Shown: positions 34,733 to 54,843 of the stretch, in pieces
How positions within the stretch are numbered: the first letter of the stretch is position 1
How the letters are laid out: each line of letters starts with the position of its first letter
IMG/VR virus record: IMGVR_UViG_3300018080_007253
Location: 1-64,000 of that record
Strand: one strand, 5' to 3'
Length of the DNA stretch: 64,000 nt
Source: a virus
Position numbers and translations under genes: made by a program
Notes under the pieces: model-generated
The model's database searches: none
Told to the model about the DNA's origin: nothing
Seen by the model: only the letters and a program-made list of their open reading frames with translations

Positions 34733-35508
34733 ATTATCAGTTCACTTTTTTTTGTAGAACCATTTATGGAATACTTTGTGATAATTTTATTTATTGTTGA
34801 TTTTCTATACATTTTTTTAATATCTTCTGCATCATCATATGACACTATGCACATAGCATTTGATGTTTCAACAAGCCTAGCTAATTTATTATGTTGATTG
34901 AATTTTTCTAAATAAAGACTGCCTCCTTTGATGTAATATGGCGGATCAATATATATTATAGTTTGCTTACTGCTTTGATACATTTGAATAAGTTTTAATG
35001 CATCTGTGTTGTATATCGAAACATTATTTTTTGTAAATAACACATGATATTTGTCTATTTGTGACAATAGAGATTCAATATTCCAGCGACAGTTAATTTT
35101 ATATTTTGAATTTTGTTTTTTCCCACCAATTGGACCTCCAGCCATTTCTCCAAGTCCAGAATATGACCATTGATGAATAGCTATTTTGATTGCTGCTGTT
35201 TTTACTATATCGTGTTTTGTTTTTTCTATTAGAAGTTTTTTTATTTTATAAAAATTTTGTACAGTTGGCTTAAGTTTTGATAGATATTTTTTTAATTTTT
35301 TTGGATATTTTTCTATAGACTTCCAAATGCTATATATGGCGTAGTCTTTATCATTAAAAACATAGCGAGTTGCAAGTTTATTTTCTAGACATTTCAATCC
35401 TATAAATCCACCACCAAAAAACGGCTCAACATATGTATCTGATGGTGTTAAAAATTTAGATATGTGTTTATATAATTTTCTTTTGCCGCCAGGGTATCGT
35501 AACATCAT
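34708..35508 (-). CDS. D12-class DNA adenine methyltransferase (Dam-like)
   Basis: A 266-residue N6-adenine methyltransferase. The ATG at 35508 is chosen: it has GGGAG 6 bases upstream and makes an ATGA overlap with the preceding gene, and a longer in-frame start lacks both. Motif X is LRYPGGKRK (residues 3-11). Motif I is VEPFFGGGF (27-35). Motif IV is DPPYY near residue 190. It methylates adenine in a specific DNA sequence using S-adenosylmethionine; the site cannot be told by eye. In phages such enzymes protect against host restriction or regulate packaging. There are three other methylase genes in the window. Confidence 0.9.
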   Translation of the reverse strand: MMLRYPGGKRKLYKHISKFLTPSDTYVEPFFGGGFIGLKCLENKLATRYVFNDKDYAIYSIWKSIEKYPKKLKKYLSKLKPTVQNFYKIKKLLIEKTKHDIVKTAAIKIAIHQWSYSGLGEMAGGPIGGKKQNSKYKINCRWNIESLLSQIDKYHVLFTKNNVSIYNTDALKLIQMYQSSKQTIIYIDPPYYIKGGSLYLEKFNQHNKLARLVETSNAMCIVSYDDAEDIKKMYRKSTINKIITKYSINGSTKKSELIICNFCQNK

Positions 35509-36017
35509 TGATGAGACTCCCATGGGAGCACAATCCACTCATTTCTTTGCTCTACAAAATGTACACCATGTGTACTCATGCATGCAAATTTATTCCACGG
35601 CTTAATAAATAGAGTAAAAATATAATATTCTTTACCCATATTTTGCAACACTTTCTCAGCTCTTTCTATTTCTTTCCCTGTATCAATTACATCATCAATA
35701 AGTGCAATTGTTTTATATTCTTTTCTAATGTCGTTATCTACACTATCATCTATTCTATAATTATTGTTTGATGTAAAAATATAATTTATTTCATTCTTTT
35801 TATCAATAGAATAACATGGCTTATTGTACATATCTGCTATCATTCTAGCAGGAATGCTGCCACCATTCTCTATAGCACAAACTGCATCTATGTGTTGTAT
35901 CATCTCGCCAAAAAGATAGCAAAATCGTTGCATTATATCAAAATATTCTACTGGCGTACATCGATGTTCTAATATACTTTTGCTACGTTTTCTGCTATCG
36001 TCTAATAAGTTTTGCAT
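35505..36017 (-). CDS. type I phosphoribosyltransferase, purine type (xanthine/hypoxanthine-like)
   Basis: A 170-residue protein. The PRPP-binding motif IALIDDVIDTGKE spans residues about 104-116. The segment AIENGGSIPARMIA (49-61) is the usual PPi-loop helix. The ending RNEWIVLPWE is typical of xanthine-guanine and hypoxanthine phosphoribosyltransferases. Such enzymes make IMP, XMP or GMP from free bases and PRPP. It overlaps the IMPDH/GMPR-like gene by 23 bases upstream and the methylase by 4 downstream. Substrate is inferred from the C-terminal motif only. Confidence 0.7.
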   Translation of the reverse strand: MQNLLDDSRKRSKSILEHRCTPVEYFDIMQRFCYLFGEMIQHIDAVCAIENGGSIPARMIADMYNKPCYSIDKKNEINYIFTSNNNYRIDDSVDNDIRKEYKTIALIDDVIDTGKEIERAEKVLQNMGKEYYIFTLFIKPWNKFACMSTHGVHFVEQRNEWIVLPWESHQ

Positions 36018-37029
36018 TTTGTTTAAATTCCTTTATATTTTTTGAATTAGTCATACTAAATGCAGAGCGCAGCCCACCAGCTAATTCATTGATGATTGTA
36101 GCAGTTTTTCCCTTTGGAGATATTACTTTTTCCTTTCCTTCTGGTGCCGTCCCCTCTTTTAGTTTGCCAAATCTTAAAATCTGTGCTTCTCTGCTAGCCA
36201 TCCCATAATACTTTGCTTTAAACACTCCATTTTCTGTGAAAAACGCATTTTCTGGACAACATGAAGATCCGGCAAGCAGTCCGCCAATCATAACAGCATC
36301 TGCTCCGATAGCCAATGCTTTTGCCATATCTCCAGAGCTTTTAAGCCCTCCGTCTGCGATTAGCGTTTTTCTTTCGCCAGTTTCTTTCGACGCGCAATCG
36401 ACACCTTGTTTGCACCCCCACAAAGATGTTGCTGTAGGCACACCGACTCCAGTTGTATCTATTGTCGTACATGCAGACCCGCCGCCGTTTGTAGCCCTGA
36501 TGCAATCTGCACCAGCCATACATAGGTCGTACGCACCTAGATGGGTTGATACATTTCCAGCTATAATTTTTAGATCAGGATAGTTTTGTTTAACAAACTT
36601 TATCATTTCGATCGTTTTTTTATGGTGTCCTACATTAAGGTCGATACACACAGCGCCAATACTATCATTGCACGCTTTTAGTATGCGCCTATCTCTTTCA
36701 TTAACGCCAATCGCTATGGCTGTACGCCTTTTCGGAACGCTATATAACCCATGTGTGGTTTTACCCTGTGCTTTTTTGATTTCAAAACCGATATCTTCAA
36801 CGCTCATAAAACGATGCAAAATGCCCATGCCACCAAGAAAATCCATTTTTGACATCATTTTTGACTCGCAGATTGTTGACATAGGGGCAGCAATAATCGG
36901 GACATTTAGATTCACCCCAGGCAAAACTTCAGAAGATAGATCAACATCAAAGCGCGAATCTACTTCAGAATAAATAGGCTCTATCAAAAAATCATCGTAC
37001 CAAAAACCTTTTCCACAATTTAATATCAT
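35995..37029 (-). CDS. IMP dehydrogenase / GMP reductase family protein
   Basis: A 344-residue TIM-barrel enzyme without CBS domains. The catalytic loop is GGGSACTTIDTTGVG with Cys187. Other family marks are IIAAPMST (45-52), LNVGHH, IIAGNVST, ADGGLKSSGDMAKALAIGADAVMIGG and GGLRSAF near the end. The short flap (EGTAPEGKEKV) resembles GMP reductase as much as IMP dehydrogenase, so I leave the direction open: IMP to XMP or GMP to IMP. An AAGGAG ribosome site precedes the ATG, and the motif TTAGTAGATATTA lies 21 bases upstream. It pairs with the phosphoribosyltransferase that follows. Confidence 0.85.
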   Translation of the reverse strand: MILNCGKGFWYDDFLIEPIYSEVDSRFDVDLSSEVLPGVNLNVPIIAAPMSTICESKMMSKMDFLGGMGILHRFMSVEDIGFEIKKAQGKTTHGLYSVPKRRTAIAIGVNERDRRILKACNDSIGAVCIDLNVGHHKKTIEMIKFVKQNYPDLKIIAGNVSTHLGAYDLCMAGADCIRATNGGGSACTTIDTTGVGVPTATSLWGCKQGVDCASKETGERKTLIADGGLKSSGDMAKALAIGADAVMIGGLLAGSSCCPENAFFTENGVFKAKYYGMASREAQILRFGKLKEGTAPEGKEKVISPKGKTATIINELAGGLRSAFSMTNSKNIKEFKQNAKLIRR

Positions 37030-37044: not shown

Positions 37045-38745
37045 TTATGTAATATCTACTAATCGAGATATTTTTTTCATACTTTCTTCAATGTGAAAAG
37101 ATTTTATTTTTCTGCAGTTTTTATGATGACACTTATTGTAGTTGCCATGTTGACATAGATTTCTTTTATCGCATGGTAGCATAATAATTTCAGCATTTGG
37201 ATTTAATGGTGCATTTTTTGTAAAATTTGTAAATGTCCACGCAATTACAGATGGTACATTGTAACATGCGGCGATATGCATTAGCCCACCATCTAGTCCT
37301 ATAAATAATTTTGCTCCTTTAATAATTGCTGCGGCATATTTAATACCTGTTGCACCGCAAAGGCTAATGGCATTATTAGATCCAAGCTTTGATATTATTT
37401 TTTGAGAAGTTATATGGTCATCTATTGTTCCAAGAAAAAGTAATTTGAAATTATTGTCTAGTAATTTTTTGAGTGGCTTTATCCATTCATCGTTGTTTTC
37501 TATTTGTTTCAGACGCCACTGTGCCCCATCTTTGAGGTATCCGACAGACACTACTGCATATTTCCCATCTGGAGACTTTTTAGATGTGTAGAACGTAGGG
37601 TTCGGAGGAGGTGCGTTATAACCAAGTTTGCGCACAAGGTCCATATTATATTCGCTTTCGTGCTTTTCCCATTCTTTGCCTTTCTTGATCTTTATAACAT
37701 TCTTTGAATTGTTAAATAGAGATGGTGGTGTAAGATGTGCAGTTGGGGAACACAGTAGATAGTCAAGCCCATCTATTGATGCTATAAAGCGATCATAGTG
37801 TTGTGGCATTATATTGTCGTCGATAAAATCAAGTCCGTTAAAAACCTCTCTTGTTCTTTTCCAATTGAATACGCTTATTCTCGCGTTAGGCTTTAGCAAT
37901 CTGATAGCCTTTAGTGCTGGAGTTGATAAAATGGCGTTTCCCATCCCAGAATTTATTAAAAACCCAATTTTTTCTGGTTCTTCATAAATAAACGCAGATT
38001 CAGGAGCTTCCTTTTGTAACATATGATGGTTTTCAACAATAGATGGTTTAAAATTTGTTTGTTTAAATGATACACCTTTTCGCTTTATCCATCCATCTTG
38101 TAGTGTCCACTTAAACTCACCATGTGTAGATATCCTGTCTGCAATCTTTTTTTTCATACGATCGGTTGTCATAATATAACTATAATGATAAAATGTTGCT
38201 ATAGGATCAGGACAATGTTTAAGTTCGGCATTATTTGGTTTTAATAGATGGTTTGGACTGCGAAATTTATAGCCAGCCCCATCAACTCTGAATAGGCGCG
38301 GCCAATTTATTTCAACGTAATGTTTGTAGTCATTGACAAATGTAAGCGACTTGGTGTCGAAATATTCAAAGTCATTTCTTTGTGTCGCATTTACAACCTT
38401 CTGAGCGTCTTCTGGCGTATAAATTTCATCTGAATCTACTATCCATAGCCAGTGTGCATTTGGGCAAATTTCGAAGTGTTTGCTGCGTTGTTGTAGCTGT
38501 GTTTTTTCGTTCAATTGATGTACTTCAATTTTGTCTGGATATTTTTCTTGTAGTTTTTTTAAAATCGGGATTGTTTCGTCGCGCGATCTTTCTATTCCAC
38601 CATTCGAATTTACTGCCGTTTGCCACGCACCCTCTATGACAATAATTTTATCGGCATAATGAATAACTGATTCTATCGTCTCTTTAAGAAAATAATCTTG
38701 TTCGAAAACACACATATGAACAACTATAGGTAACTTATGCGACAT
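37045..38745 (-). CDS. two-domain glycosyltransferase (GT-A then GT9-like)
   Basis: A 566-residue protein. I chose the ATG at 38745 (MSHKLP) because GGAAGG lies 6 bases upstream and it starts one base after the previous stop. Residues about 5-230 form a GT-A fold with the metal-binding WIVDSDEIY motif. Residues about 260-560 form a GT9-like heptosyltransferase fold starting at IGFLINSGMGNAILSTPALKAIR and ending with LFIGLDGGLMHIAACYNVPSVIAW. A C-terminal Cys/His cluster (CDKRNLCQHGNYNKCHHKNC) is typical of phage and bacterial GT9 proteins. It probably adds two sugars in turn. The acceptor is unknown. Confidence 0.85.
   Translation of the reverse strand: MSHKLPIVVHMCVFEQDYFLKETIESVIHYADKIIVIEGAWQTAVNSNGGIERSRDETIPILKKLQEKYPDKIEVHQLNEKTQLQQRSKHFEICPNAHWLWIVDSDEIYTPEDAQKVVNATQRNDFEYFDTKSLTFVNDYKHYVEINWPRLFRVDGAGYKFRSPNHLLKPNNAELKHCPDPIATFYHYSYIMTTDRMKKKIADRISTHGEFKWTLQDGWIKRKGVSFKQTNFKPSIVENHHMLQKEAPESAFIYEEPEKIGFLINSGMGNAILSTPALKAIRLLKPNARISVFNWKRTREVFNGLDFIDDNIMPQHYDRFIASIDGLDYLLCSPTAHLTPPSLFNNSKNVIKIKKGKEWEKHESEYNMDLVRKLGYNAPPPNPTFYTSKKSPDGKYAVVSVGYLKDGAQWRLKQIENNDEWIKPLKKLLDNNFKLLFLGTIDDHITSQKIISKLGSNNAISLCGATGIKYAAAIIKGAKLFIGLDGGLMHIAACYNVPSVIAWTFTNFTKNAPLNPNAEIIMLPCDKRNLCQHGNYNKCHHKNCRKIKSFHIEESMKKISRLVDIT
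37050..37062 (-). promoter_or_regulatory. recurrent motif TTAGTAGATATTA (copy 1)
   Basis: One of three identical 13-mers on the minus strand (see 49098 and 62987). Here it falls in the last codons of the glycosyltransferase gene, 21 bases before the IMPDH/GMPR-like start. It is followed by an AT-rich stretch and an AAGGAG ribosome site. It may be part of a promoter or an operator; this is inference from recurrence and position. Confidence 0.3.
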
Positions 38746-38746
38746 T

Positions 38747-39103
38747 TTAACCTTCCAAAAGTTTGAATTGTTTACCAAGAATCGAAATTGTTGTACGCTT
38801 ATTTCCCTTCTTGTCTTCCCAATCTGATTGCTGAAGCTCCCCAGTAAGCTTAATAAGCAGTCCACCCTCAATTCGTTCGCTGTCTTCTACTGTCGGCATA
38901 ACAGTTTCGATTTGTGTGTTAAGGTCTTCTGCTTGCTTATCCCAAAATGTAACCATTATTTTCGTATAATTTTTTCGACTGTTCCTTGTAGACACACGCA
39001 AATTCAACACATATTTGCCCTTAGCGGTTTTACGAAGTGTTTTAAATTGGATATCTCCGATAAGCGCAACCTTATTTTTGTAACGTTCAGTTTTGTCAGA
39101 CAT
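38747..39103 (-). CDS. SSB-like OB-fold protein without acidic tail
   Basis: A 118-residue protein. The order of strands KVALIGDIQF, GKYVLNLRVSTRN, YTKIMVTFWDKQAE, LIKLTGEL and TTISILGKQFKLL matches the single-stranded DNA-binding OB fold, with WDKQAE as the usual SSB landmark. It lacks the acidic DDLPF-type end present in the main SSB at 48611. It sits between a Dam-like methylase and a glycosyltransferase. A second SSB or a DNA-modification accessory protein are both possible. Confidence 0.65.
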   Translation of the reverse strand: MSDKTERYKNKVALIGDIQFKTLRKTAKGKYVLNLRVSTRNSRKNYTKIMVTFWDKQAEDLNTQIETVMPTVEDSERIEGGLLIKLTGELQQSDWEDKKGNKRTTISILGKQFKLLEG

Positions 39104-39902
39104 TGAAATCTCCTTTCAAAAAAATTAATTCTTTACAATCTTTCTTGATACTATTATTAACAGAATACTTAATTCCATATTCTATACAATGAAAATCTGG
39201 CATATATTTTCTTATAGATTCATTATATGAAACCATTACGTTTGCGCCATTTTCTGCCAGTCTTTTTGCGATTATAGCAACTTCCTTCATCTTCTTTTCT
39301 GTAAATACACCTTGATATGCGATATCTGTAGAAACTGTTCCTACATATGGTGGATCAAGATAAAATAGATGTCCATTCAAATCTTTCGCATTGTCTTTAA
39401 TATAAGCATAACAATAATTTGCTATGTCGTTATTACTAATTGCTGTTCTTTGCAACAACTTTGATACAGATAGGATATGCTCCTTTTTAAATATTTTTTT
39501 ATACGCCCTTCCATATGGAACATTAAAACGATTGTTTTTATTAAATCTCATCAATGCGCCAAATGATACCTTATTAAAATAGATATAAAATGCAGCAAAC
39601 GCTATATCTCCTAACCTGTCGTGAAATTTTTCTCTTATAGAATAATAAGATTCTTTATCCTGATGTTTTTGAAGTGTTGATAGCACAACACACACTTCTT
39701 TTGGATGGTTGCGTATAGTTTTATAAACCCTTATAAGCCTTTTGTCTGTATCATTAATAAAGCCACATTTTGGCTCAAGATCAAAGAAAAGTGAGCCGCC
39801 CCCAACAAACGGCTCGTGATAATACTCGAATGATGGCAATAGCGGGCGAATATGTTTAAGCATCCTGCGCTTGCTACCAACATACCTCAAAAATGGTTTC
39901 AT
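39096..39902 (-). CDS. D12-class DNA adenine methyltransferase (Dam-like), second copy
   Basis: A 268-residue Dam-type enzyme. Motif X is PFLRYVGSKRRML (residues 3-15). Motif I is HEPFVGGGSLFFDL. The adenine-enzyme landmark FNKVSFGALMRFNKNNRFNVPYGR is clear, and motif IV is DPPYVGT. It is closer to the classic Dam/DpnIIA pattern than the methylase at 34708. It is joined to the upstream methylase by an ATGA overlap and to the SSB-like gene by an 8-base overlap. The target site is probably a short palindrome, but that cannot be seen. Confidence 0.9.
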   Translation of the reverse strand: MKPFLRYVGSKRRMLKHIRPLLPSFEYYHEPFVGGGSLFFDLEPKCGFINDTDKRLIRVYKTIRNHPKEVCVVLSTLQKHQDKESYYSIREKFHDRLGDIAFAAFYIYFNKVSFGALMRFNKNNRFNVPYGRAYKKIFKKEHILSVSKLLQRTAISNNDIANYCYAYIKDNAKDLNGHLFYLDPPYVGTVSTDIAYQGVFTEKKMKEVAIIAKRLAENGANVMVSYNESIRKYMPDFHCIEYGIKYSVNNSIKKDCKELIFLKGDFNV

Positions 39903-40906
39903 ATTGAGCTCCTCTTAACAAAATGCAAATATTCTTTCATTTGGCTGTCCTTATATTTTCTTTTATCAGACCTGTCTGCTTTAAATCTTTTGTAATTTGT
40001 TTCAAATCTCTTATAGTTGCCAAACTTTTTCATTATTTTTTCTATGGTAGATGTTTGCATCAGTCCATCGCTACTGTAACTTACAAATATATATTTAAAT
40101 GCTGCATTTATTAATAGGTTTTCAAACACATCCTCTACAACACCCTTTTGACAAAACAAAGATCTTGTATATTCTCTCAGTCCAGTTTTACCATATGGAA
40201 CAAAGTCATCATAAAGCGCTATAGTGTTTAATAAATGATAATTTGAACTATATTGGCGAGAGGTATAAGGTGGATCAATATATAAGATATCCCCGCTAAT
40301 TTTTTTTATTAGTTCGTTACTATCCATATTATATACTATGTGATTTTTGTCAGTATCGTCGAAAATCGCTGGTTCCAATATCATTTTTTGTAATGCGCTT
40401 TTTTTGAATTTTTTTAAATAGGCACCATACACAGATGTTGTATTTGCGATTTTGTCTGCTGATTCTATTAGACTTGCTATCAGAAAATAATATATGTCAT
40501 CATCTATTATACATTTATTTTTGAGCCTATCTATTTGTTTTCTTATGGCGTCTATTATAGAGCCGTTTTGATCTGTAAAATATTTTCTACTCTCTTTTCC
40601 TGATGGACAATAATGTTCTGCAATAAATCCAGGAGCGGCGTCTATTCTGTTCAACATTTTTATATATGTTAAATATGCTTCTTTTAATTTTTTGTTCCCA
40701 ATGTAGTTTCTGTTTAAAACATAGCTATAATATTCTATGTCGTTCGCAATAATTTGTTTAGCTATATTTTTTATTTTCCTACCTATTATTCCTGTTCCTG
40801 CAAATAAGTCACAAAATATTTTATCAGATATCCCGTTTTTAACACTATTATTTATATTGTTTATAATAAAATTTTGTAGTTTATTTTTTGATCCGATGTA
40901 GTTCAT
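39899..40906 (-). CDS. DNA adenine methyltransferase of a probable restriction-modification pair
   Basis: A 335-residue D12-type methylase with motif X MNYIGSKNKL at the very start, motif I CDLFAGTGIIG (about residues 32-42) and motif IV LYIDPPYTSRQYS. The SRQY extension after DPPYT is usual in type II restriction-associated methylases rather than orphan Dam enzymes. Its ATG overlaps the stop of the upstream nuclease candidate (ATGA), which is the common layout of coupled restriction-modification genes. It would methylate the site that the nuclease cuts. Confidence 0.8.
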   Translation of the reverse strand: MNYIGSKNKLQNFIINNINNSVKNGISDKIFCDLFAGTGIIGRKIKNIAKQIIANDIEYYSYVLNRNYIGNKKLKEAYLTYIKMLNRIDAAPGFIAEHYCPSGKESRKYFTDQNGSIIDAIRKQIDRLKNKCIIDDDIYYFLIASLIESADKIANTTSVYGAYLKKFKKSALQKMILEPAIFDDTDKNHIVYNMDSNELIKKISGDILYIDPPYTSRQYSSNYHLLNTIALYDDFVPYGKTGLREYTRSLFCQKGVVEDVFENLLINAAFKYIFVSYSSDGLMQTSTIEKIMKKFGNYKRFETNYKRFKADRSDKRKYKDSQMKEYLHFVKRSSI

Positions 40907-42069: not shown

Positions 42070-42235
42070 CAAACACCTCAATTTTTTCTTCTTTTTCTAT
42101 AATTCCTTTTTCTTTCAAAACATTAAATGGAATGTTGACAGTTAAAGAACACCATTTTTTCTTTCCACGCCTACTGCCATTGGTAGAAGTTTTATAATTA
42201 TGATCACTACTAATTATTTCTTCTAAAAGAAAGGA
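42062..42235 (-). pseudogene. orphan C-terminal reading frame without a start codon
   Basis: An open frame of 57 codons ends in TAA at 42062-42064. It begins directly after an in-frame TGA at 42236-42238 and has no ATG, GTG or TTG in its first 40 codons. The deduced peptide has a basic middle (NGSRRGKKKWCSLTVNIP) and an acidic end (KEEKIEVFDE), like the tail of a small DNA-binding or AbrB-type protein. Its stop overlaps the next gene's start, as real genes do here. I read it as the remnant of a gene whose 5' end was lost together with the 3' end of the methylase at 42223. Confidence 0.5.
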
Positions 42236-42903
42236 TCAAATACTATGTCGCCCCTCTTTGTCCATGTCTCTATATGGTCTATTGCCAGCTTTTCAGGAAA
42301 CATTGCTGGATGTTCAAATGCAAATTTATCTGATGTCGTGTAGCCTTTTCCTGTATTATATCGCCAAATATTTACTCTTGGACTAAATTCTGCAACAGAC
42401 TTTACATCTCGTGCCTTAAGTTTTCCATTTTTAAGTCGCATTGTTCCGCCACCCCACGGCTTCCACCCCTGCCATCTGTTCTTTTTATCACAAATTAAAT
42501 TAGCTGTTTTTGGCTTTCCTTTTGAAAATACAAACATATATTCGAAAATTTGTGAATACCTATTACTTTTGCGTCCTGCTGGAAACGGCGTGCTATTTTT
42601 TTCATATATCATTGTGTCGTGTAACCTAAATCCAGCAGCCATAAATGATAGTGCTTGCTTAAAAGAACTGCCTGTTTCTGAACCATTTACTACGCCATCG
42701 CCAACCACCCAAACTACAACGCCACCCTTTTTTGTTACCCTATATAGTTCTGCTATTAATTTTTGTATATCTAGTTTATATCCTTCATACGATCGAAGCT
42801 TATCATAAGGCGGAGACGTAATAGTTAGATCAATACAATTGTCTGGCAACCACTTCATTTTTTCGCAACAATTGCCATTCGCAACAAGGCTTCGTACAGC
42901 CAT
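42223..42903 (-). pseudogene. beta-class DNA methyltransferase truncated before the SAM-binding motif
   Basis: A 226-residue frame. Motif IV is TSPPYD (residues 29-34), followed by LYRVTKKGGVVVWVVGDG and NSTPFPAGRKSNRYSQIFEYMFVFSKG, all typical of N4-cytosine or N6-adenine methyltransferases of the beta order. In that order the SAM-binding motif I (DPFxGSGTT and a further 30 or so residues) comes last. Here the protein ends in TAG right after DIVFDPFF, so motif I and the final helix are missing. I expect loss of activity. The ATG follows the lipoprotein stop directly. Confidence 0.75.
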
Positions 42904-43508: not shown

Positions 43509-43764
43509 TTTTTCTGATCTTTCGATACATATAATGTGCAGCATGTATAATTGGGACGATAAAAAAATAAATCAAGGAAAGTGTTGTGCCAAAAATTGCC
43601 CCTATAGCAGCAAAAAACATTGTGATTATTATTAGCGGCGACAGTGTTTCGGCCCATGTCATTTCGCAATTAATATCTAATATTTTTATTCCAATAAGAA
43701 ATAGTGTTGCACCAATCAATAGCCATCCAATAATAATTATAGACTCAAAACTTTCTTTACTCAT
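43501..43764 (-). CDS. small membrane protein with two hydrophobic segments
   Basis: An 87-residue protein. The ATG at 43764 has a GGAGG ribosome site and overlaps the end of the glycosyltransferase by 8 bases; an in-frame ATG at 43800 lacks one. Two membrane spans are evident: residues about 8-28 (IIIIGWLLIGATLFLIGI) and about 42-75 (LIIITMFFAAIGAIFG and SLIYFFIVPII). The C-terminus is basic. It could anchor or flip a glycan or simply be a phage membrane protein. No family recognised. Confidence 0.6.
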   Translation of the reverse strand: MSKESFESIIIIGWLLIGATLFLIGIKILDINCEMTWAETLSPLIIITMFFAAIGAIFGTTLSLIYFFIVPIIHAAHYMYRKIRKNV

Positions 43765-46700
43765 TTGCGCCTCCATCATCAAACATATCTTTTTCTTCAA
43801 GTTTGATCAACAAATCCTTTGAGTTTTCCACCCTTTCTTTAATATCTTTGCTTGAATTATGTGTCCACGAATTTTTGCCGTGCCAAGTATTATCCCAAAA
43901 TTCGCCTCTTTGTTGTTTAACATTGGTGTCGTTCCAAGAAAGATGTAATGTGTGTGGCATTTTTGTTAATACTTGTGTTACCATTGCCACATATTCATAC
44001 TTCAGTTTTTCAGGAATTTCTTTGCCTTGTTCGTGCATTTGTACCATTGCGGCGTGCAGTTGTAGTGCTTGCGGTGGCGTGATTGAAACATTCTGCATAA
44101 TCTTGAGCGTATTTTTATCTATGTACTCACAACTATCGCTCACCTTTTTATTATAAGTTAATTGCATTTTTTCTGCATCAAATTCACGAGCATCTCCGTG
44201 CACACCATGTTCAATATTTTCGTCATTTTTACTAATGCGCCATTTTTCAAACGGACGTTCAACCCTTATTGTTTTGTTGTCGCCGTAGAGATTAATACCT
44301 GGGATATTAAAAATTGGTACATTACGATTCATTTTAATAAGATTTCTAATTTGTCCCTCTTGCGGTTCTACCAAAATTTCGTCTGCATCAAGCTGAATAA
44401 GATAATCGCCATCACATTGTTTTCTTGCATACGTCTTCTCATTCCCCATTAGCATTGGATCATCCATGTCCCATTGGTGCTGCATAATCTTAAGCTTCTT
44501 ATTATTTTCTGCAAGCTTATTAAGATTTTCCCATGTGCCATCCGTACTTCCGCCGTCAACCATAATAAATTCATCTACAACGCCACATGCTGCAGAGATA
44601 CATCGCTCATAAGGAAAATTATATTTTTCACCATCTTTTATAATGCAATATGCTGACAACTTTAAAGGTTTCGGCGGGACTACATGTTCTTCTCCAAGTC
44701 TATCCGCAATGGTCTCTAAAATTGTTTCTGGAAGAATACTATTGATACATTTATCACCAATTTTCTTTTCTTTTAAAATACACTTTTCTAGATGGCAACT
44801 CGTTATACATTGTCCCCTATTTTCTGGCTCAAGAGCAACCCCATTTTCAATTCCAGCTTGTTTTGCATAAGTACCACCGTAAAGCACAACGCTTGGAGTT
44901 CCTACAGCTCGTGCTATATGTGACGGGAACGAATCAAGTCCAACATGGAGCGCGGCGTTTGCAATTACGTGTGCAAGTTGCTGCGGCGTAGTTTTTCCTC
45001 GTAAATCAACAACATCTTTATGATCAATAAGAGGTTCGTCTTTTCCTCCAACCTGCACAATTTTCATATTTTTAATATTTGGAATTACTTCGTCCCATCT
45101 TTCATAATCTTTTGGGTCCTGTGTAGTTTTGCAATGAAATGTAATGTACTCGCCGTCTGGAATTTCGATAGAGATATCTGTGTCAATGCACATCTCTTCT
45201 TCTATTTCTTCATTTGACATTGTAAGATTGCACATATGCGCATAACTTACCCCAAGAGACTTCCCATTTCCACTATGAATCCAGTGTGGGATTTTTTGTG
45301 TTATAATAAATGGACAAAAACACATATCAACAAAGCCAGGAGATGGTCCAAAATGTTCTGGTGTTCTATAATTCAACAATTCAGGATGATATTCGACTAC
45401 ACCATGAATATATGGATTATCTTTTATAATGTCAAAATATTGTGGTTTTGTTGCGAAATAAATAGAGGCATCTGGATATTCGTCCTGCAACTTTGTTATG
45501 ATTGCTGTTGAAATAAGCACATCTCCAGCAGTTTCTGGCATACAGTATAAAATTCTAAATGTGTCATCTTTATCCATCGACTTAGCAATTGCTTCTATAG
45601 GGTTTTGCGGCTTTGTATTGTCTAATAGGTCTGCTGCAACATTATTCTTTTTTGTAATGTTTCTAAAATATTCTTCAACTTTATTTCTTTGCACACCCTT
45701 TTTTAATTGTCCAAGCCAATTTCTTTTGCCGCTATTATCTGGTTCTCTATGTAAAATTTCTTTATAACATTTATTTACAAATTCTTCATCTGAAAGATTT
45801 TGTTGTTTATGCAAGTTTTCTTCTGGCATTTCAAGCTTATCTATCTTTTTGTCCCACGCATTTTTATCAACTTCTGTTTTGTCTAAAATATACTCCCATT
45901 TTTTAGAAGTTAAATCCCAATTGTAATAATCTACAGCACATCGTCTTGCCTCGTTAGAAAGCCTTTCAAGAATTTTTGGCTTTTTCATAATTTTTGTAAG
46001 CTTATTGACAAGATCTTGTCTGTCGAACCATGCTCGCCACTGCATAGTTTCTGCCTCTGTTTCTAGATCACACTTGATAAGTGCGCCACCGCCATTTTTG
46101 CCCTGTTCTGACATAGCTGCGTAGTTTGTTACAATTGTTGGTACACCAGCAGATTTAGCATTAACTATGGACATTTCCGCCGCACCTGCAATTGCGCCTT
46201 GTACATAAACATCCATCAAGTTAAAAAGTTTTGCAAATTGTTCGTCTGGATATCCAATTTGTGTATTTGGCGTTATCATGCTAACTTTCCCGCACTTTGG
46301 ACACTTTGTAGGATGCCCAGCGAATGGAGATACAGCACATACACCACATTCTGCGCAAATGTAAGAGAAAAGCACTTCCTTTTGTAGCCCCTCTCGCCTA
46401 ATAGCTTCTGGAATATCAAAACCAACGTCTTGAACACATGTGTGTAAAAGCAATTTGATATTGTCAATGTCTTTTATTTTTTTCTTTTTTGGGTCTGATT
46501 CGCCCCATCCATTTTGATCCTTGAACATTCTAAATGATTCGATAAGGCGTGGAAACAATTTTCTTTTTTGATTTCTTGACACCATTCCAATGAATCTTAT
46601 TTCAGGCGGAATTCCAAAATCTTGTTTAACTTTCGTTTTGTCTTGTGGTGCATAAATTTTAGTGTCTATCCCAGGTTGCATCACCATATCTACTTTTAGC

Positions 46701-48460
46701 GGCTTAATTCCGAGTCCTCTTGCAATATCTGTTTTTGACTGCTCTTCAAGTGCTCGTTTCCCAAAGTGTGCATATGCTAACAGTGTATCAACGCCACCGT
46801 ATGTATTTAGCCATTCCCATTTTTGAGGATAACTATCAACACATGCCATATATATCCAGTGGAATCTATCCCTAAATGCACTATCTGCCCAAAAGTAATC
46901 CATCCAACGATCCCGTAACACTGCAACAATATTTGGTTTAAAGTCAGCCAAAACGTTATCCATAATCAATTTGCCAAATTGCGCCTCACGGTAATGTTGC
47001 TTGTATTCCTGAATGCCGACAGAATCATTGTCTTCTGGAATAACTCCATAAAATTTCCAAGGTAAAGATTGAGCACGAGGGTCTGATGTTTTTGCATACG
47101 AATTATGTACTACAAAATTATTACAAATATATGAATTATCATCCTCCACTTCTAAATTATATACATAATCATTAAAATTTCTTTTATGTATTTGTGTAAT
47201 TTTTGTAAATATTAAATTGTCTTTAATAATATATTCGGTTGCTGATAAATTTTTTAATTTACCACTTTTTTCTACAAAGTTATCAATTAAAACATTGCCA
47301 TTCTCTCCACGACATCCAAGCAGATAATATCCTCCAGATGTGTTGGCATCACATTGACACCACTTTCTATTAATAAAAACACCATTTTTATGCCCAAGTT
47401 GCATTATGCGATTTGAAAGTAATTTAGAAACTGTTTTTGCCTCTAATACATTTCTATCAATATTAATACAGCCATCTTGTTCAAAATAACTAGCCAATAA
47501 TTTTATCATCCAGTCCTTATTAGCATTCCATAGTTTGTCACTAATAAATTTATCGTGACAACTTGTGCCAAATAGCGTATAAAAAAATCTTGCAATATTT
47601 CTATTGCACACCATAATTTCCCATACACCAATTTTTTCACGATAGAATATTTTTGGAGTTTTAACATTAAATAGATCAGAAATAGCGTTCGCTATCTGTG
47701 TTGCTATTGTTTTATAATTTTTATTACCACAAAATGAAATAGCATTTATGCCAAGTTTTTTATTTTTTATAGCACATCCATTTGATAAAAATGCACCAAA
47801 CAACAATGCCGATTGGTCATTTAGTGGAACTTTTATTCCTTCTGATTCTATTGTGTTTATATTTTTCGACTTAAAACTTTCTTTTCCATAGGCTACAAAA
47901 TCATCTTTTTTTAATTCTCCTGCAGGAATCCATTCGTATTTGATATCATCTACACCTTTAAAACATTTCGATGATAAATATTTATAAGCATTTTCTTTTT
48001 TTATTGCCAAAATTGGATGGTTATGTGTTACCTCTATTGTTTCTCCACCCAAATTTTTTCTTAAAATTTTTACTGCCTGAGTATTTTTAATAGTTTTAAA
48101 TGTATGTGTGACACTTTTAATTTGTCCGCTGTGCGTTAATACTTTGTCACCAACATTTACTAGCGAAATTGGTGTTAATTTACCATTTTTCATAGAAATA
48201 AGAGCACGAGGATCTAAGATACAACCAATTTCCGCAATTTCATATTTACCGGTATTTTCAAGTCGCCTGATAACATTATCCCAATATGTTGAAAATCCTG
48301 TCTTGAGAAAACTTGCCTCCCCCACGAAAAGCACTCTTTTCTTTTCATCTGTTTTTGGCAGCTCATCAATTTTTTCTTGCAGTTTTTCTATACTCCATGG
48401 CTCAGAAAATGTTCCACCCTTGATTCTACGCAATTTGTCCGGTTGATTCATATATTTCAC
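43757..48460 (-). CDS. three-module glycosyltransferase (GT4, DUF4214, GT9, GT2) interrupted by an intein
   Basis: A 1567-residue precursor; 1193 residues after removal of the intein at 80-453. It may start at GTG 48460 or ATG 48451 (GGGGTG upstream); I list the longer form. After splicing, a GT-B glycosyltransferase (VLFVGEASFLKTG to about 860) contains a zinc ribbon (CAEC, CPKC near 702-723). Then comes a DUF4214 segment (about 890-935), a GT9-like module (ILYCMPETAGDVLISTAI to VGLDSFPSHIARAVGTPSVVLYGG), and a GT2 module (GGSTDGTWENL, LIQLDADEIL). Three sugar transfers by one protein are implied. The acceptor is unknown. It follows the SSB gene and DUF5320-like peptide in one operon. Confidence 0.85.
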   Translation of the reverse strand: MKYMNQPDKLRRIKGGTFSEPWSIEKLQEKIDELPKTDEKKRVLFVGEASFLKTGFSTYWDNVIRRLENTGKYEIAEIGCILDPRALISMKNGKLTPISLVNVGDKVLTHSGQIKSVTHTFKTIKNTQAVKILRKNLGGETIEVTHNHPILAIKKENAYKYLSSKCFKGVDDIKYEWIPAGELKKDDFVAYGKESFKSKNINTIESEGIKVPLNDQSALLFGAFLSNGCAIKNKKLGINAISFCGNKNYKTIATQIANAISDLFNVKTPKIFYREKIGVWEIMVCNRNIARFFYTLFGTSCHDKFISDKLWNANKDWMIKLLASYFEQDGCINIDRNVLEAKTVSKLLSNRIMQLGHKNGVFINRKWCQCDANTSGGYYLLGCRGENGNVLIDNFVEKSGKLKNLSATEYIIKDNLIFTKITQIHKRNFNDYVYNLEVEDDNSYICNNFVVHNSYAKTSDPRAQSLPWKFYGVIPEDNDSVGIQEYKQHYREAQFGKLIMDNVLADFKPNIVAVLRDRWMDYFWADSAFRDRFHWIYMACVDSYPQKWEWLNTYGGVDTLLAYAHFGKRALEEQSKTDIARGLGIKPLKVDMVMQPGIDTKIYAPQDKTKVKQDFGIPPEIRFIGMVSRNQKRKLFPRLIESFRMFKDQNGWGESDPKKKKIKDIDNIKLLLHTCVQDVGFDIPEAIRREGLQKEVLFSYICAECGVCAVSPFAGHPTKCPKCGKVSMITPNTQIGYPDEQFAKLFNLMDVYVQGAIAGAAEMSIVNAKSAGVPTIVTNYAAMSEQGKNGGGALIKCDLETEAETMQWRAWFDRQDLVNKLTKIMKKPKILERLSNEARRCAVDYYNWDLTSKKWEYILDKTEVDKNAWDKKIDKLEMPEENLHKQQNLSDEEFVNKCYKEILHREPDNSGKRNWLGQLKKGVQRNKVEEYFRNITKKNNVAADLLDNTKPQNPIEAIAKSMDKDDTFRILYCMPETAGDVLISTAIITKLQDEYPDASIYFATKPQYFDIIKDNPYIHGVVEYHPELLNYRTPEHFGPSPGFVDMCFCPFIITQKIPHWIHSGNGKSLGVSYAHMCNLTMSNEEIEEEMCIDTDISIEIPDGEYITFHCKTTQDPKDYERWDEVIPNIKNMKIVQVGGKDEPLIDHKDVVDLRGKTTPQQLAHVIANAALHVGLDSFPSHIARAVGTPSVVLYGGTYAKQAGIENGVALEPENRGQCITSCHLEKCILKEKKIGDKCINSILPETILETIADRLGEEHVVPPKPLKLSAYCIIKDGEKYNFPYERCISAACGVVDEFIMVDGGSTDGTWENLNKLAENNKKLKIMQHQWDMDDPMLMGNEKTYARKQCDGDYLIQLDADEILVEPQEGQIRNLIKMNRNVPIFNIPGINLYGDNKTIRVERPFEKWRISKNDENIEHGVHGDAREFDAEKMQLTYNKKVSDSCEYIDKNTLKIMQNVSITPPQALQLHAAMVQMHEQGKEIPEKLKYEYVAMVTQVLTKMPHTLHLSWNDTNVKQQRGEFWDNTWHGKNSWTHNSSKDIKERVENSKDLLIKLEEKDMFDDGGANE
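47102..48223 (-). other. intein with LAGLIDADG-type endonuclease, inside the glycosyltransferase
   Basis: Residues 80-453 of the precursor (374 residues). It starts with Cys80 (CILDPRALISMKNGK), has a VGDKVLTHSG block, the block B TxxH (VTHNHPIL), two dodecapeptide endonuclease motifs (LLFGAFLSNGCA and LLASYFEQDGCI) and ends VEDDNSYICNNFVVHN followed by Ser454 (+1). The penultimate His and final Asn are both present, as is the nucleophile. The joined product reads EIAEIG-SYAKTSD. Splicing and homing should both be possible from the visible residues. Confidence 0.92.
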
Positions 48461-49086: not shown

Positions 49087-52000
49087 TTACTCATATATAA
49101 TATCTACTAAAGTGCCCAATTTGTTTGATGAAATATTTTTAATTATACCGTCTCTGTCAAATACTGCCACATAACTTTTTTTCCCTGGCAAATATATTTT
49201 ATTAATACAAAACGATCCATATTCTGCAGACAATTTGCCCTCTATGCAACAGACATCACAATGTTCTAATGCTTTTTTTAATTTTTTATGTACTTCTTCA
49301 TTATTATGGAAATAGATTGCTCGCTGTCTATCTGTTGAATCATATATGTCAAACATTGATAATAAATTATCTTTTTTGCTTCTGATAGTTATAAAATCCT
49401 CTACACATACAAGTATTGGTCCATTTTCAAATTTAGCATACGACAAACCATCATCCACCTTTCTGTATACATCTGCAACAGAATATGTAATAGGAAACCC
49501 AATAATTTCTTTTTCTTTTTCTGCTATTATTTTTTTCTTTTCAATCTCGCTTAAATTGTTTTCTACTGCCTTTTTAAGTTTGTCGTTTTTTAATTTATCT
49601 CCCATTTCTATAGCCCATTCATTTACTGCGGCCATAAAAGATATCTTTTTATTACTCATTATTTCTTCTATTTTTTCTAACCTTTTGTCTGTAAGCATAT
49701 AAAATATTTTGAACTCTCTCCACATTTCATAGCGATTATCATAATGGTTTAAAAGAGTTTCATCAAATGCACCACTGAACACCAATGTTTTTATTGTACT
49801 TTGATTAATTTTATATTGTTTTATCAAGTGTCTCAAACTATGAATGCACTTTACTCCTTTTAATCTTTCTATTGCTTTTTTTACAGATTTTCCTATTCCT
49901 TTCAAATCTTTAAAACCAAAATATATAACACCATCCTCAATACAAAAATCAAATTGAGATTTATTAATGTCTGGTGGCTTTATTTTTATACCAAATTTCA
50001 TTGCATCATAATATAATTCTTTAATTTCCTGTTGCGGCTTTTGTTCTTGATGTGCCATTCTCAACATTGCCAAATAGAAATATAATGGATAATGTTTTTT
50101 GTACCACGCCATAGTGTATCCAAGCATAGCATAGGCCGTACTATGGCTTGCATTAAAGCTATAGCTTGCTGCAGCCTCTATGAGTTCCCACAATTCATCT
50201 GCTAATTCCTTATCGTATTTATTTTTAATACAACCATCAATAAATTTATTTTTGTATTGTGCCATTTTTTCTGGCAATTTTTTCCCGACGAATTTTCTTA
50301 ACTTGTCAGCTTCTATAAGTGAAAATCCTGCAATTTTTCTTGCAACCTTTAAAAGCTGTTCTTGAAAAAGCATAATACCATTGGTCTTACTAAATATTGG
50401 CTCAAGATCAGGATGCATATATTCTATTTTTTGTGCATTTTTGTTATCTACATATTGTTGCGCAAGCCCAGTATCGAGCGTTGCTGGACGTATAAGCGCT
50501 ATAACATCTGACCATTGTTCTATATTTGATGGCTTAACTTTTTTCATCCACGCAATGCCAAGGTGTGATTCAAGTTGAAAAATTCCTTTAGTTTTTCCTT
50601 GCGACGCCATATTAAAAACAGATTCATCATCATAAGATTCAGAATCTTTTTTGTTATGGACAATACCATTTTTTTTCATTTCTTTCCTAATAATATCAAT
50701 TACAGTCATCGATTTAATGCCAAGCACGTCAAGCTTCAAAAAACCCATACTTTCCAATATTCTCATGTCGTATGCGGTTACGTGCCGCTTATTTCTCGCG
50801 TCCCACGACAGAGGCACTTCCCCGCCTATATCTTTATCTGACACGACTATCGCGCATGCATGTCCTCCTGGCTGTCGCTTGCACCCTTCAAGTGTTTGCG
50901 CGTGTTTAAATAGCATTTTTAATTTTCTTGATCTTTCGTTTATTAGTTCTTTTAACTGTGTTTTTCTTAATTGGTTAGTTGAGTTTTTTAATTCTTTTTC
51001 CCATCTTTCTATGTCTTCATCTATCCCTTCTGAAAATCTTTTAATATCTGTTGATGTTTCAATGGCTTTTTCTATCGTGTCAACTTTGTGTGGAAACTTT
51101 TTTGTAATTTTATTAATGTAGTCAAACTGCAAATTTATTGCCCTGCCGACATCCTTAAGTGCCGCCTTGCCAGCCATTGTACCAACTGTCATCATTGGAT
51201 ATACTTTATTGTGTCCAAATTTTTGCCTTAGATAGTCTATAATTTCTCCTCGCCTTTCTACATCGAAATCCAGGTCGATATCAGGATATGAGCCTTTCCT
51301 ACCTTTATTGTAAAATCTTTCCCATATTAAACTATATTTTATTGGATCAACGCCAGTTATATTCAAAATGTATGCAATTAGACTTCCTGCCGCACTTCCT
51401 CTGCCTACGCCCCTCGCTATTCCTTTTCTATCAGCGAACTCACACACATCATTCACTATCAAAAAATAGTGTGCTAAATCAGCCTCTTTGATATCTGTCA
51501 ACTCTTTTTTGACTCTTTCTACATAATCTTTATCATCCTTTGTAAACAATTTTCTTTTAATAGTTTTTTCTCTTGCCTTTTTCAACAATAAATCATAAGC
51601 TTCCTCATCGCTGAAGTTATTATAATTTGGAATTTTAGATGCTGGCTTAAATTCTATTTCTACATTGCATCTATCGGCAATCCTTTGACTTTCTTCAACT
51701 TCTTCTTTTTTAAATCTTTCCAGCATCTCATCTTCTGATTGGATGTAATAATCATACCCATTAAATTTCATTCTTCCCCACGGCACGCTTTCTGTCTTTA
51801 TTGGATCATCAAGAGTTTTGCGAGAATATATTGCTTTTAAAATTTCGTGAGAAACATGGTCTTCTTTGTTTAGGTAGTGGCAATTATGTACAATATATGA
51901 ATTTGCAATATATGTATTATCATTTTCAACTTGTAAATTATAAACGTATCCATTATATTTTTTTTCGTATATTTTATATATTCCAGTGTAAAAAAAGTTA

Positions 52001-54843
52001 TTATCCGAACAAAATTTTGGTTTTGTGTTTTTTGTCGTTTGTATTTTTACATTTTTATCATATTCACAAGAATTAAATTCTTTTGAAAATCTCAACAATT
52101 GTTTACCACATATATTTAAAAAATATTGTGTTTTCCACGATGGGTGTTTTTTGTTTTTTATTTTAGTTGGAATAGAGAGATATCCTTTATAATTTAAATA
52201 TTGAGATATTTGGTATATTAATTTTTCGCTGCAACTACAAATTCCAAATGACTGTGCTCTAATATGCCCATCACAATAAAAATAATATTTTAATATAGTA
52301 TCTATCTCTGATTCTGTGAACCTATGTATATTTTTTATATATTTATTATGTCCTAAATGTCCAGTAAAATTTTTAAAAATATGACGAAAAACAAAAGATG
52401 AGTATGCTATTCTAATATATTCATTATGATATGTTTTATAGGCATTAAAACCAAACTGCATAAAATATTTTTCTACAATATTAACAAAATCATTATGTTT
52501 TTTATTGAATGTAAATGAAACTTTATAATTATTAATATTGCCTTCTGCCATATACATGCCTAAAATTTTACACAATGTTTTGTCAATTTTTAAATTTCGT
52601 GGAATTTTTATATGTTGTTGTGAATAAGATTTAACATATCCATTTTTTAATATTCTGCCACGTTTTTTCTCGATATTATCCCATATATCATACGAAGATG
52701 AAAAATCAGAACGCTTTGGAAAAATCATTTTATATTTTGGAATGCATAAAATATCATTTTCATTTATTTCCCCTGCCGTTTTCCATATCTTAATATTTTT
52801 ATTCTTAAAATTTATACCTTTATTTTTTCTTTCTTTAACTAAAATTGGGTGATTTTTTGTACATACAATATTTTCTGATCCTAGATATGGCTTAATTACT
52901 ACAAGGTTTTCGTCTATTTTTCTTTTGTTTATAAATTCTACATTATGTAATTCTCCATTGTGAGTGTATACCCTATCATGTATTTTTAAATTTTCTATAT
53001 TTCTACAGCCATCTATTGTCGATATTTTTGTTCCTGGAATAAAGCAATCGTTCGTTGCAATAACTGGAATATCATATTTTGCTGCAAATTTTCTCGACAC
53101 GTCTATTACCGTGTGTTGTTCTGGAATATAATCAATTCCATCTCTGTTTACTTGTTGAATTTCTAAATAAAAACGATCACCAAATTCTTTTTTAAAAAGT
53201 TTGGTAAGTCGCTCTGCCTTTTGCGCATCGTTTACCATGTGATAAGGTATAAGCCCTCCAACACAGGCAGTAAGAATAATAACCCCTTCTTTGTGCTTAA
53301 ATAGCGTTGGCAGATCTATTCTTGGCTTATAATAAAAGCCGCCACCCTTATTCAATGGAGTATTTGCATATGTTGTCAGCTTAACTATATTCTCCCAACC
53401 CTTGTTGTTCATCGCAAGTGCAATCAAATGATATGATTTGCGCTCTTTATCTTTGTTATCTTCCACGCAATAAAATTCACAATTATGGATTGCAAAACTG
53501 GACAAATATGAGTTGTCATGCTCTACCTCTATATTGTACACCGGACCATTGTACTGTTTTTTGTCGATATTTTTAATTGGGCATTTAATATAGTCATTTT
53601 CTACTATTGAATACTTTCCTTTTGTTTCCTTATTGGAAATATGTGCGTAGAATGCAACATGCTTTTGACAACTTTTCCCCTTTGGATGTGATTCTAAAAT
53701 ATTTATAGTCTGACCAAATTTTGCGAATAGATGTTTTAGCGTATACATCAATTTTTTATTAGATAATTTTAAAACATTAAATTGTTTTGTAGTTTTAGCA
53801 TCTCCTTGACATACTCCATCTAATATGCCTCGATGGAATTTATTGTTATCAATATATAATATTTTCGCATTTATATATTTACCATATGAATATTTTCCGA
53901 ATAACTTATAGAACAATTCAGCTATTATAGTAGATGAAATTGTAATGTCGTATGTGTTTTTGCCTTTTCTTTTCTTAGCGTTACCAGTAACTCCAAAGCA
54001 TTTATTGATCATTGACAATACAAAATTAACATATTCGTTTTCATCAATGTTAAATGTAAAACTAATGCCAGTAAGTTTATTATTTATAGAATAATATGAG
54101 CCTTCTGCCAAAAATAACCCACAAAGTCTTCCGAAATTGTAGTCTAATTTAAATTCTGTATTTATCCAATGCGATTGCGAATTTTTGCAATCAGATATAC
54201 CATTCTTTTTCCATGCTCTCATGGCAATTTTTGAGCTTTTGATGATATATTGTTTGTCTGTTATATTCAAAAATTCTGACATATGGAAACTATCTTTTTT
54301 TGCAAATTTATATTTTGTGGGGATATTAATATACGATTTCCATAATTTGTTATTTATTTTTTTAGGACTTCCATTCTTATATTTTTCCTGTCCAAAGCAT
54401 ATTTCATCCGCACGAATCCATTTTGTTTCGTTTGTATTATAAGTGATTAGAACAGGATGTTCGTTTGTTAACCACATTTTTTCATTAACCCATGGATCAA
54501 TTCCATATATTATACCATTGTAATCACGAGTCATAGTCCTTAATACTTTTTTAAACCTACCGTTATGTGTAATAACATAATCATCTGTTGTTACTTTCTC
54601 TATAGGTTTCGGGCCATCTTTTGTATATATAATTTGTCCAGGTAAACAACAGCCAATAACCGGCTTAATCCCCTGCTTTTTGCACTCCTTGTAAAATTCT
54701 AGAGCTCCGCTGATGTTTCCGTGATCTGTTATCGCACAAGCGTTTTGCCCTAATGCCTTGACTTTTTTAACATAGTCTTTGATCCTAAGACAAGAGTCCA
54801 AATACGAATAGCTTGTATGTGCATGTAGGCTTACATATGCCAT
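49087..54843 (-). CDS. dnaE: DNA polymerase III alpha subunit (DnaE-type) with two inteins
   Basis: A 1918-residue precursor; about 1140 residues after splicing, a normal DnaE length. The PHP domain begins at HAHTSYSYLDS, with ITDHG and CEFYC and ATNDCHYL joined across the inteins. The polymerase core has RGVGRGSAAGSLIAY and the catalytic PDIDLDFD, then HACAIVVSD, and a helix-hairpin-helix region with GFKDLKGIGK. The last 150 residues look like an OB/tail domain. It is the replicative polymerase of the phage. The stop of the lipoprotein upstream overlaps the start by one base. The C-terminal codons include the recurrent TTAGTAGATATTA motif. Confidence 0.95.
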   Translation of the reverse strand: MAYVSLHAHTSYSYLDSCLRIKDYVKKVKALGQNACAITDHGNISGALEFYKECKKQGIKPVIGCCLPGQIIYTKDGPKPIEKVTTDDYVITHNGRFKKVLRTMTRDYNGIIYGIDPWVNEKMWLTNEHPVLITYNTNETKWIRADEICFGQEKYKNGSPKKINNKLWKSYINIPTKYKFAKKDSFHMSEFLNITDKQYIIKSSKIAMRAWKKNGISDCKNSQSHWINTEFKLDYNFGRLCGLFLAEGSYYSINNKLTGISFTFNIDENEYVNFVLSMINKCFGVTGNAKKRKGKNTYDITISSTIIAELFYKLFGKYSYGKYINAKILYIDNNKFHRGILDGVCQGDAKTTKQFNVLKLSNKKLMYTLKHLFAKFGQTINILESHPKGKSCQKHVAFYAHISNKETKGKYSIVENDYIKCPIKNIDKKQYNGPVYNIEVEHDNSYLSSFAIHNCEFYCVEDNKDKERKSYHLIALAMNNKGWENIVKLTTYANTPLNKGGGFYYKPRIDLPTLFKHKEGVIILTACVGGLIPYHMVNDAQKAERLTKLFKKEFGDRFYLEIQQVNRDGIDYIPEQHTVIDVSRKFAAKYDIPVIATNDCFIPGTKISTIDGCRNIENLKIHDRVYTHNGELHNVEFINKRKIDENLVVIKPYLGSENIVCTKNHPILVKERKNKGINFKNKNIKIWKTAGEINENDILCIPKYKMIFPKRSDFSSSYDIWDNIEKKRGRILKNGYVKSYSQQHIKIPRNLKIDKTLCKILGMYMAEGNINNYKVSFTFNKKHNDFVNIVEKYFMQFGFNAYKTYHNEYIRIAYSSFVFRHIFKNFTGHLGHNKYIKNIHRFTESEIDTILKYYFYCDGHIRAQSFGICSCSEKLIYQISQYLNYKGYLSIPTKIKNKKHPSWKTQYFLNICGKQLLRFSKEFNSCEYDKNVKIQTTKNTKPKFCSDNNFFYTGIYKIYEKKYNGYVYNLQVENDNTYIANSYIVHNCHYLNKEDHVSHEILKAIYSRKTLDDPIKTESVPWGRMKFNGYDYYIQSEDEMLERFKKEEVEESQRIADRCNVEIEFKPASKIPNYNNFSDEEAYDLLLKKAREKTIKRKLFTKDDKDYVERVKKELTDIKEADLAHYFLIVNDVCEFADRKGIARGVGRGSAAGSLIAYILNITGVDPIKYSLIWERFYNKGRKGSYPDIDLDFDVERRGEIIDYLRQKFGHNKVYPMMTVGTMAGKAALKDVGRAINLQFDYINKITKKFPHKVDTIEKAIETSTDIKRFSEGIDEDIERWEKELKNSTNQLRKTQLKELINERSRKLKMLFKHAQTLEGCKRQPGGHACAIVVSDKDIGGEVPLSWDARNKRHVTAYDMRILESMGFLKLDVLGIKSMTVIDIIRKEMKKNGIVHNKKDSESYDDESVFNMASQGKTKGIFQLESHLGIAWMKKVKPSNIEQWSDVIALIRPATLDTGLAQQYVDNKNAQKIEYMHPDLEPIFSKTNGIMLFQEQLLKVARKIAGFSLIEADKLRKFVGKKLPEKMAQYKNKFIDGCIKNKYDKELADELWELIEAAASYSFNASHSTAYAMLGYTMAWYKKHYPLYFYLAMLRMAHQEQKPQQEIKELYYDAMKFGIKIKPPDINKSQFDFCIEDGVIYFGFKDLKGIGKSVKKAIERLKGVKCIHSLRHLIKQYKINQSTIKTLVFSGAFDETLLNHYDNRYEMWREFKIFYMLTDKRLEKIEEIMSNKKISFMAAVNEWAIEMGDKLKNDKLKKAVENNLSEIEKKKIIAEKEKEIIGFPITYSVADVYRKVDDGLSYAKFENGPILVCVEDFITIRSKKDNLLSMFDIYDSTDRQRAIYFHNNEEVHKKLKKALEHCDVCCIEGKLSAEYGSFCINKIYLPGKKSYVAVFDRDGIIKNISSNKLGTLVDIIYE
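49098..49110 (-). promoter_or_regulatory. recurrent motif TTAGTAGATATTA (copy 2)
   Basis: The same 13-mer as at 37050 and 62987. Here it lies in the last codons of dnaE, 41 bases before the ssb start, followed by TATATATGAG. An internal promoter for ssb would allow SSB to be made in excess over the polymerase. Inference from recurrence. Confidence 0.3.
51883..53046 (-). other. intein 2 in dnaE (PHP metal-site region)
   Basis: Residues 600-987 (388 residues) of the precursor. It starts with Cys600 (CFIPGTKISTIDGC), has VYTHNG, a block B CTKNHPILV and endonuclease motifs LCKILGMYMAEGNI and ILKYYFYCDGHI. It ends VENDNTYIANSYIVHN, followed by Cys988 (+1). The joined product ATND-CHYLNKED is the conserved PHP motif of DnaE, so the insertion point is exact. 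The residues needed for splicing are all present. Confidence 0.93.
53482..54651 (-). other. intein 1 in dnaE (early PHP domain)
   Basis: Residues 65-454 (about 390 residues). It has CLPGQIIYTKDG, VITHNG, the block B LTNEHPVLI, endonuclease motifs RLCGLFLAEGSY and RGILDGVCQGDA, and ends VEHDNSYLSSFAIHN before Cys455 (+1). The N-terminal junction is KPVIG-CC-LPG. To rebuild the usual KPVIGCEFY the intein must begin at the first Cys (54651); if it begins at the second (54648) the product has one extra Cys. I favour the first because of the extein. Confidence 0.9.

Follow-up and report, generated by a model that had tools for sequence, protein, structure and literature searches.

The known hosts of phage inteins are, by published account, proteins acting on nucleic acids or nucleotides and no others, and an intein inside a sugar-transferring enzyme of a virus therefore raises the questions of whether the insert is a genuine intein, how it came to its site and whether the enzyme is controlled by it. 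The locus was analysed in a window of 64,000 nucleotides, positions 1 to 64,000 of the IMG/VR record IMGVR_UViG_3300018080_007253 (69,947 bases), which was assigned to a tailed phage because it carries a tape-measure gene together with DnaB, DnaG-like, RecA and PhoH genes. The glycosyltransferase (GT) ORF lies on the minus strand at 43757-48460 and encodes 1567 amino acids, with a GTG start at 48460 (translation might also begin at an in-frame ATG three codons further on) and the stop codon at 43757-43759. A selfish class 1 intein, predicted to be competent for splicing and with an endonuclease that looks damaged, in a viral GT family that has been invaded recurrently, is taken as the explanation of the whole locus with high confidence.

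Residues, boundaries and fold of the intein

The initial annotation had placed an intein of 374 residues at residues 80-453 and a joined extein of 1193 residues, and these boundaries were recovered exactly. The N-extein (residues 1-79, 48224..48460, minus strand) ends with TGKYEIAEIG and was aligned to positions 3-43 of the GT profile, the intein (from Cys1 to the terminal His-Asn, 47102..48223, minus strand) contains the class 1 motifs and a LAGLIDADG endonuclease domain, and the C-extein (residues 454-1567, 43760..47101, minus strand) begins with SYAKTSD. Removal of the intein and joining of the exteins gave a protein of 1193 amino acids. Against the family profile, the spliced protein scored 555 bits as a single match that ran gapless through the junction, and the unspliced ORF was split into two matches there.

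All of the splicing residues that had been annotated were present in the window intein. They were compared in an alignment that also included both DnaE inteins of this phage and eleven from related GTs. The N-terminal splice nucleophile Cys1 (codon at 48221..48223, minus strand) and both T66 and H69 of Block B (T-H-N-H, intein residues 66-69, 48017..48028, minus strand) were invariant across the 14 aligned inteins, and the terminal His373-Asn374 (47102..47107, minus strand) is followed directly by the +1 Ser codon at 47099-47101 (VVHN-S). Block F has Asn (DDNSY), not the usual His, a feature shared with both DnaE inteins of this phage and with the site-b inteins described below. The Pfam family Intein_splicing matched the GT ORF above the Pfam cut-off (E=5e-12), and an AlphaFold model of the intein (pLDDT 84.7) was matched over its full length to intein/homing-endonuclease structures, with the TliVMA intein as the best Foldseek match (E 7e-22, TM 0.69-0.70) and PI-PfuI and PI-SceI among the other top PDB matches. 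Thus Cys1, TxxH, His-Asn with +1 Ser, the Hint fold and exact removal, by which a class 1 intein is recognized, were all found. Precursor splicing would be expected to proceed by an acyl shift at Cys1, transesterification to Ser+1 and cyclisation of Asn374, and we infer that the intein excises itself by this route, which would make beta-strand 2 in the first Rossmann domain whole again (EIAEIG-SYAKTSD) and release an enzyme of 1190-1193 amino acids.

The annotation of two LAGLIDADG motifs stood for the second one (LLASYFEQDG, 47471..47500, minus strand), in which Asp250 is kept, and had to be qualified for the first one (LLFGAFLSNG, 47777..47806, minus strand), in which the acidic residue is replaced by Asn148. 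At the latter position 12 of the 13 other aligned inteins have D/E, with the site-b intein of L136 as the exception; both DnaE inteins of the window keep D/E in the aligned motifs. In the LAGLIDADG class the loss of a motif's acidic residue makes an active endonuclease unlikely, and since the acid of motif 1 is lost by this one substitution, the endonuclease of the window intein is probably inactive and its homing probably dead.

The GC content of the intein was 0.28 (GC3 0.16) versus 0.37 (GC3 0.28-0.32) for the exteins, and a similarly low GC relative to exteins was seen in the DnaE inteins of the same phage. An open frame by chance was rejected, as a mean of 32 in-frame stops was counted in Markov shuffles of the intein DNA and all 20,000 shuffles contained stops.

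The TliVMA intein (7qsu/7qss), PI-PfuI (1dq3) and PI-SceI (1vde) are like the window intein in combining a Hint fold with a two-motif LAGLIDADG endonuclease. They differ from it by their low identity (12-17%) and by the missing acid in motif 1 of the window intein. Their hosts are a V-ATPase subunit or ribonucleotide reductase (the latter in the case of PI-PfuI), whereas the window intein resides in a GT. The intein of the cyanophage vB_AphaS-CL131 (aa 133-483 of its dCTP deaminase), which excises itself on expression in E. coli (PMC6293099), is a phage intein of similar size, with a nucleotide-metabolism enzyme as its host, unlike the GT.

Host glycosyltransferase and its relatives without the intein

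The host was correctly annotated as a multidomain GT, with GT4-like, DUF4214, GT9 and GT2 domains. After the junction, the rest of the GT4-like domain comprises residues 454-962 (45575..47101, minus strand; profile positions 44-535; phrog_2170, 7.6e-18), within which PHROG 2170 (glycosyltransferase) spans residues 574-861 of the ORF. DUF4214 follows at residues 885-928 (45677..45808, minus strand, E=1.8e-11), GT9 of the heptosyltransferase type at residues 1104-1201 (44858..45151, minus strand, E=4e-12) and GT2 at residues 1286-1390 (44291..44605, minus strand, E=1.5e-8 and 1.8e-6). The calls of GT9 and GT2 were based on bit scores above the curated Pfam cut-offs (given in brackets), which were 46.4 (22) for PF01075, 35.4 (27.5) for PF13704 and 28.4 (23.3) for PF00535, respectively.

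The fold of the family was tested on the relative L128, which shares 38% identity with the window protein after splicing and is also matched by phrog_2170. Its model (pLDDT 91.5) has a GT-B fold, as do the GT of Paramecium bursaria chlorella virus NY2A (3oy2) and MshA (3c48), and GT4 enzymes were its top structural matches. The window protein differs from GT4-type enzymes and PHROG 2170 in its fusion to DUF4214, GT9 and GT2, in its interruption by the intein and in the loss of the EX7E glutamates: both are replaced in the window (GAAEMSIVNA), and EGFGMPQVEA or a similar motif occurs in most of 214 family members. Because both glutamates are lost, activity of the first GT domain in the window phage is uncertain. 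The earlier proposal that the glycan step depends on splicing is thus unproven, the more so as GT9 and GT2 lie further downstream.

Relatives were searched for by a degenerate DNA pattern of the N-extein block GKYEIAE, which matched more than 120 viral contigs; all of the 120 contigs fetched encoded a relative of the GT. Since this pattern selects on the junction block itself, the distant block GTVMRNQ.RK was chosen for a second scan. More than 120 viral contigs were again matched, whereas the genomes of 84,980 prokaryote species yielded only 7 matches; the GT family is therefore essentially viral. Among the matches listed (at least 120 per scan, including some near-identical contigs and not independent events), continuity at the site of the window intein (site a) was seen in 119 relatives of the first scan and in 107 of the unbiased second one, their union being 211, and site a was occupied in 0 of the 211. 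The intein-less relatives that the initial annotation had asked for therefore exist; with the intein taken out, the window protein aligns with them straight through the junction, which coincides with theirs to the residue, and the check that could have refuted the annotation thus turned out in its favour.

Site a is well conserved: in the unbiased set, among the matches listed, A40 was found in 96%, E41 in 96% and Y45 in 91%, and the +1 residue was Ser or Cys in 68 of 85. On the L128 model it falls between residues 43 and 44 within beta-strand 2 (37-47), in agreement with the earlier placement in the N-terminal Rossmann half. A second site-a intein was sought with the pattern GKY[ED].AE.[GA]C[LIVFM], and the four loci obtained were rejected as all of them were intein-less (CFG or CFA). 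This search turned up no further virus in which site a is occupied, and homing at that site itself is therefore undocumented. Searches with exact 8-residue patterns of the C-extein and of the intein gave no related loci, because such patterns are too specific for so divergent a family, for which the degenerate DNA patterns succeeded. A tblastn search of INPHARED with the whole C-extein gave no match at 1e-5, and only relatives of 20-26% identity were obtained with a shorter domain.

Inteins at other sites and the origin of the insertion

The initial annotation had treated the intein as singular; in other viruses, inteins were found in members of the same GT family at three sites different from site a. 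These sites were found by scans for C-terminal junctions and by profile search, and some relatives of the first set already carried inserts. Site b (PD[IV][VT]^C.IRD.WM) is occupied in L133, L134 (=L062), L135 (=L043), L136, L137, L138 and L143, site c (W^C[VI]MPTVD) in L064 and L139, and site d (QY..^CEG.G), just before the GT4 EX7E motif, in L052, L076, L137, L138, L140-L143, L175, L176 and L190. Full inteins are present, in 17 contigs besides the window, and L137, L138 and L143 have two inteins in one GT. Among the matches listed in two samples, 8 of 236 loci carried an intein, with per-site rates of 0/211 for site a, 2/212 for b, 1/210 for c and 5/198 for d. On the L128 model, site b is between residues 109 and 110 in strand 108-111, site c between 132 and 133 in strand 131-134, and site d at approximately 363 and 364 after strand 357-360, and the four sites are thus modelled in, or at the ends of, beta-strands.

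Inteins at the same site were mostly alike (44% identity between the site-d inteins of L137 and L076, 33% between the site-b inteins of L137 and L143), as expected from site-specific homing. A recent local duplication as the donor of the window intein was rejected, since it is about 25% identical to either DnaE intein, no closer than to GT inteins elsewhere. The site-d inteins at L076:6188-7396 and L137:9618-10757 end in Gln (FQ/YQ), not in His-Asn, as does that of L138, and may be splicing variants or decayed.

These data would best be accommodated by a class 1 intein with a LAGLIDADG domain, in frame in a GT4-like/DUF4214/GT9/GT2 fusion gene of a tailed phage, which as a selfish element would at some time in the past have homed into a conserved codon block of the GT gene. 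Because its endonuclease looks damaged (Asp/Glu to Asn in motif 1), the intein is probably fixed and inherited vertically. The virus-specific family beside DnaE has been invaded by LAGLIDADG inteins at no fewer than four different conserved strand ends. The window intein itself is of an ordinary class 1 type; it is most likely a selfish element and has probably lost its mobility.

The annotated role as a possible control point would instead make the intein a conditional switch, in which redox, temperature or the stage of infection would slow or trigger GT splicing and thereby time glycosylation. The modelled site inside a core beta-strand, by which the unspliced form should be misfolded or inactive, speaks for it, and the conditional splicing known for other inteins (PMC5790916, PMC6195587) provides a precedent. 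However, a useful switch should persist in its lineage and site a is empty in all of the 211 relatives among the matches listed, the supposedly controlled domain itself has a degenerate EX7E motif, and the patchy occurrence at several sites fits homing of a selfish element; nothing points to regulation, and such a switch is regarded as very improbable. Only slightly more credit is given to a decaying intein that splices inefficiently and leaves the protein unspliced or cleaved and the GT domain non-functional: the degradation of both endonuclease motif 1 and the GT EX7E motif would agree with it, but no splicing residue has been lost, the reading frame is uninterrupted and, apart from the EX7E motif, the extein shows good conservation in its match to the family profile, including the block just past the junction. 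That the window insert is known from a single contig might suggest an assembly chimera, or a Hint domain unrelated to inteins; with both ends in frame, all intein blocks present, a junction that is residue-exact against the 211 relatives among the matches listed and related inteins in the same GT family, this is hardly credible. The preferred reading thus remains that of a selfish intein, and the wider pattern, a viral GT family recurrently colonised at four sites, is more surprising than the window intein.

According to a survey of mycobacteriophages (PMC5050341), every phage intein host in it binds nucleic acid once spliced; those inteins likewise occupy conserved motifs of host proteins with a patchy distribution, and the GT host of the window lies outside that set. 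No GT intein was found by a full-text search of open-licence papers, and within that scope a viral GT family as a recurrent intein host outside DNA-handling proteins is apparently undescribed. With four sites, shared sites and double inteins, the family is a natural test of what decides intein hosts, by which gene conservation and phage co-infection could be separated from protein function, and it offers a well-sampled set of empty sites for homing studies.

Linkage to DnaE and neighbouring genes

In the window the gene order is DnaE with two inteins, SSB and the GT with one intein. The adjacent phage DnaE (PolIII alpha, 49087..54843, minus strand) is interrupted at 53482-54648 (which could start at 54651) and 51883-53046 by LAGLIDADG inteins, at PVIG^CEFY in the PHP domain (the N boundary being either of two adjacent Cys) and at ATND^CHYL, respectively. 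Among the matches listed, 99 family loci have an upstream flank of 4 kb or more; in 98 of them a phage DnaE on the same strand lies no more than 6 kb upstream of the GT (median 1.7 kb). In L143, a stretch of 8 kb contains two inteins in the GT and one in DnaE. A gene next to the polymerase would share the polymerase's co-infection traffic, which may be why the GT is invaded. The locking of the family to the phage polymerase gene is also a functional lead. It is conceivable, though rather unlikely, that the family serves the replication program, with phage DNA or a replication protein as a possible target, rather than the decoration of virions; if so, both the DnaE synteny and the repeated invasion at four sites, unlike ordinary GTs, would be explained, and the inteins would mark a replication-linked glycosyltransferase.

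Several further arrangements of DnaE were observed. At L018:2600-3200 it is split, the N-part ending with GPGRG^CFVPET and a stop and the C-part opening 54 nt on with the C-terminal half of an intein (GIGVHN^SAAGCLV), an arrangement resembling a split intein at GRG/SAAG. In about 80 loci (e.g. L137:2073-7172, L013, L009, L136) DnaE is broken at one place, which lies between the NTPase and finger domains (residue ~577-590 of the L016 DnaE), and its parts are 0.6-2 kb distant from each other; in the examples inspected, the parts were separate ORFs without intein halves, apparently a two-subunit polymerase III alpha. The DnaE intein at L014:8655-9457 (minus strand; SFNR^CVSG...VVSN^SHGVSYA) has a middle part that looks like an endonuclease of the HNH type, not of the LAGLIDADG type.

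On the minus strand of the window, a second protein with GT2 and GT9 (GT2-GT9) is encoded at 37045-38871, a nucleotide-sugar epimerase (phrog_540) at 31865-32887 and an IMP dehydrogenase at 35995-37029. Together with the GT9 and GT2 domains of the host, the second GT2-GT9 protein and the epimerase attest to a sugar-handling (sugar/nucleotide) module in this phage. Beside the GT, four DNA methyltransferase genes (one of phrog_56, two of the D12 adenine class and one N6/N4) occupy an 8-kb stretch at 34708-35538, 39096-39902, 39899-40906 and 42223-42903 on the minus strand.
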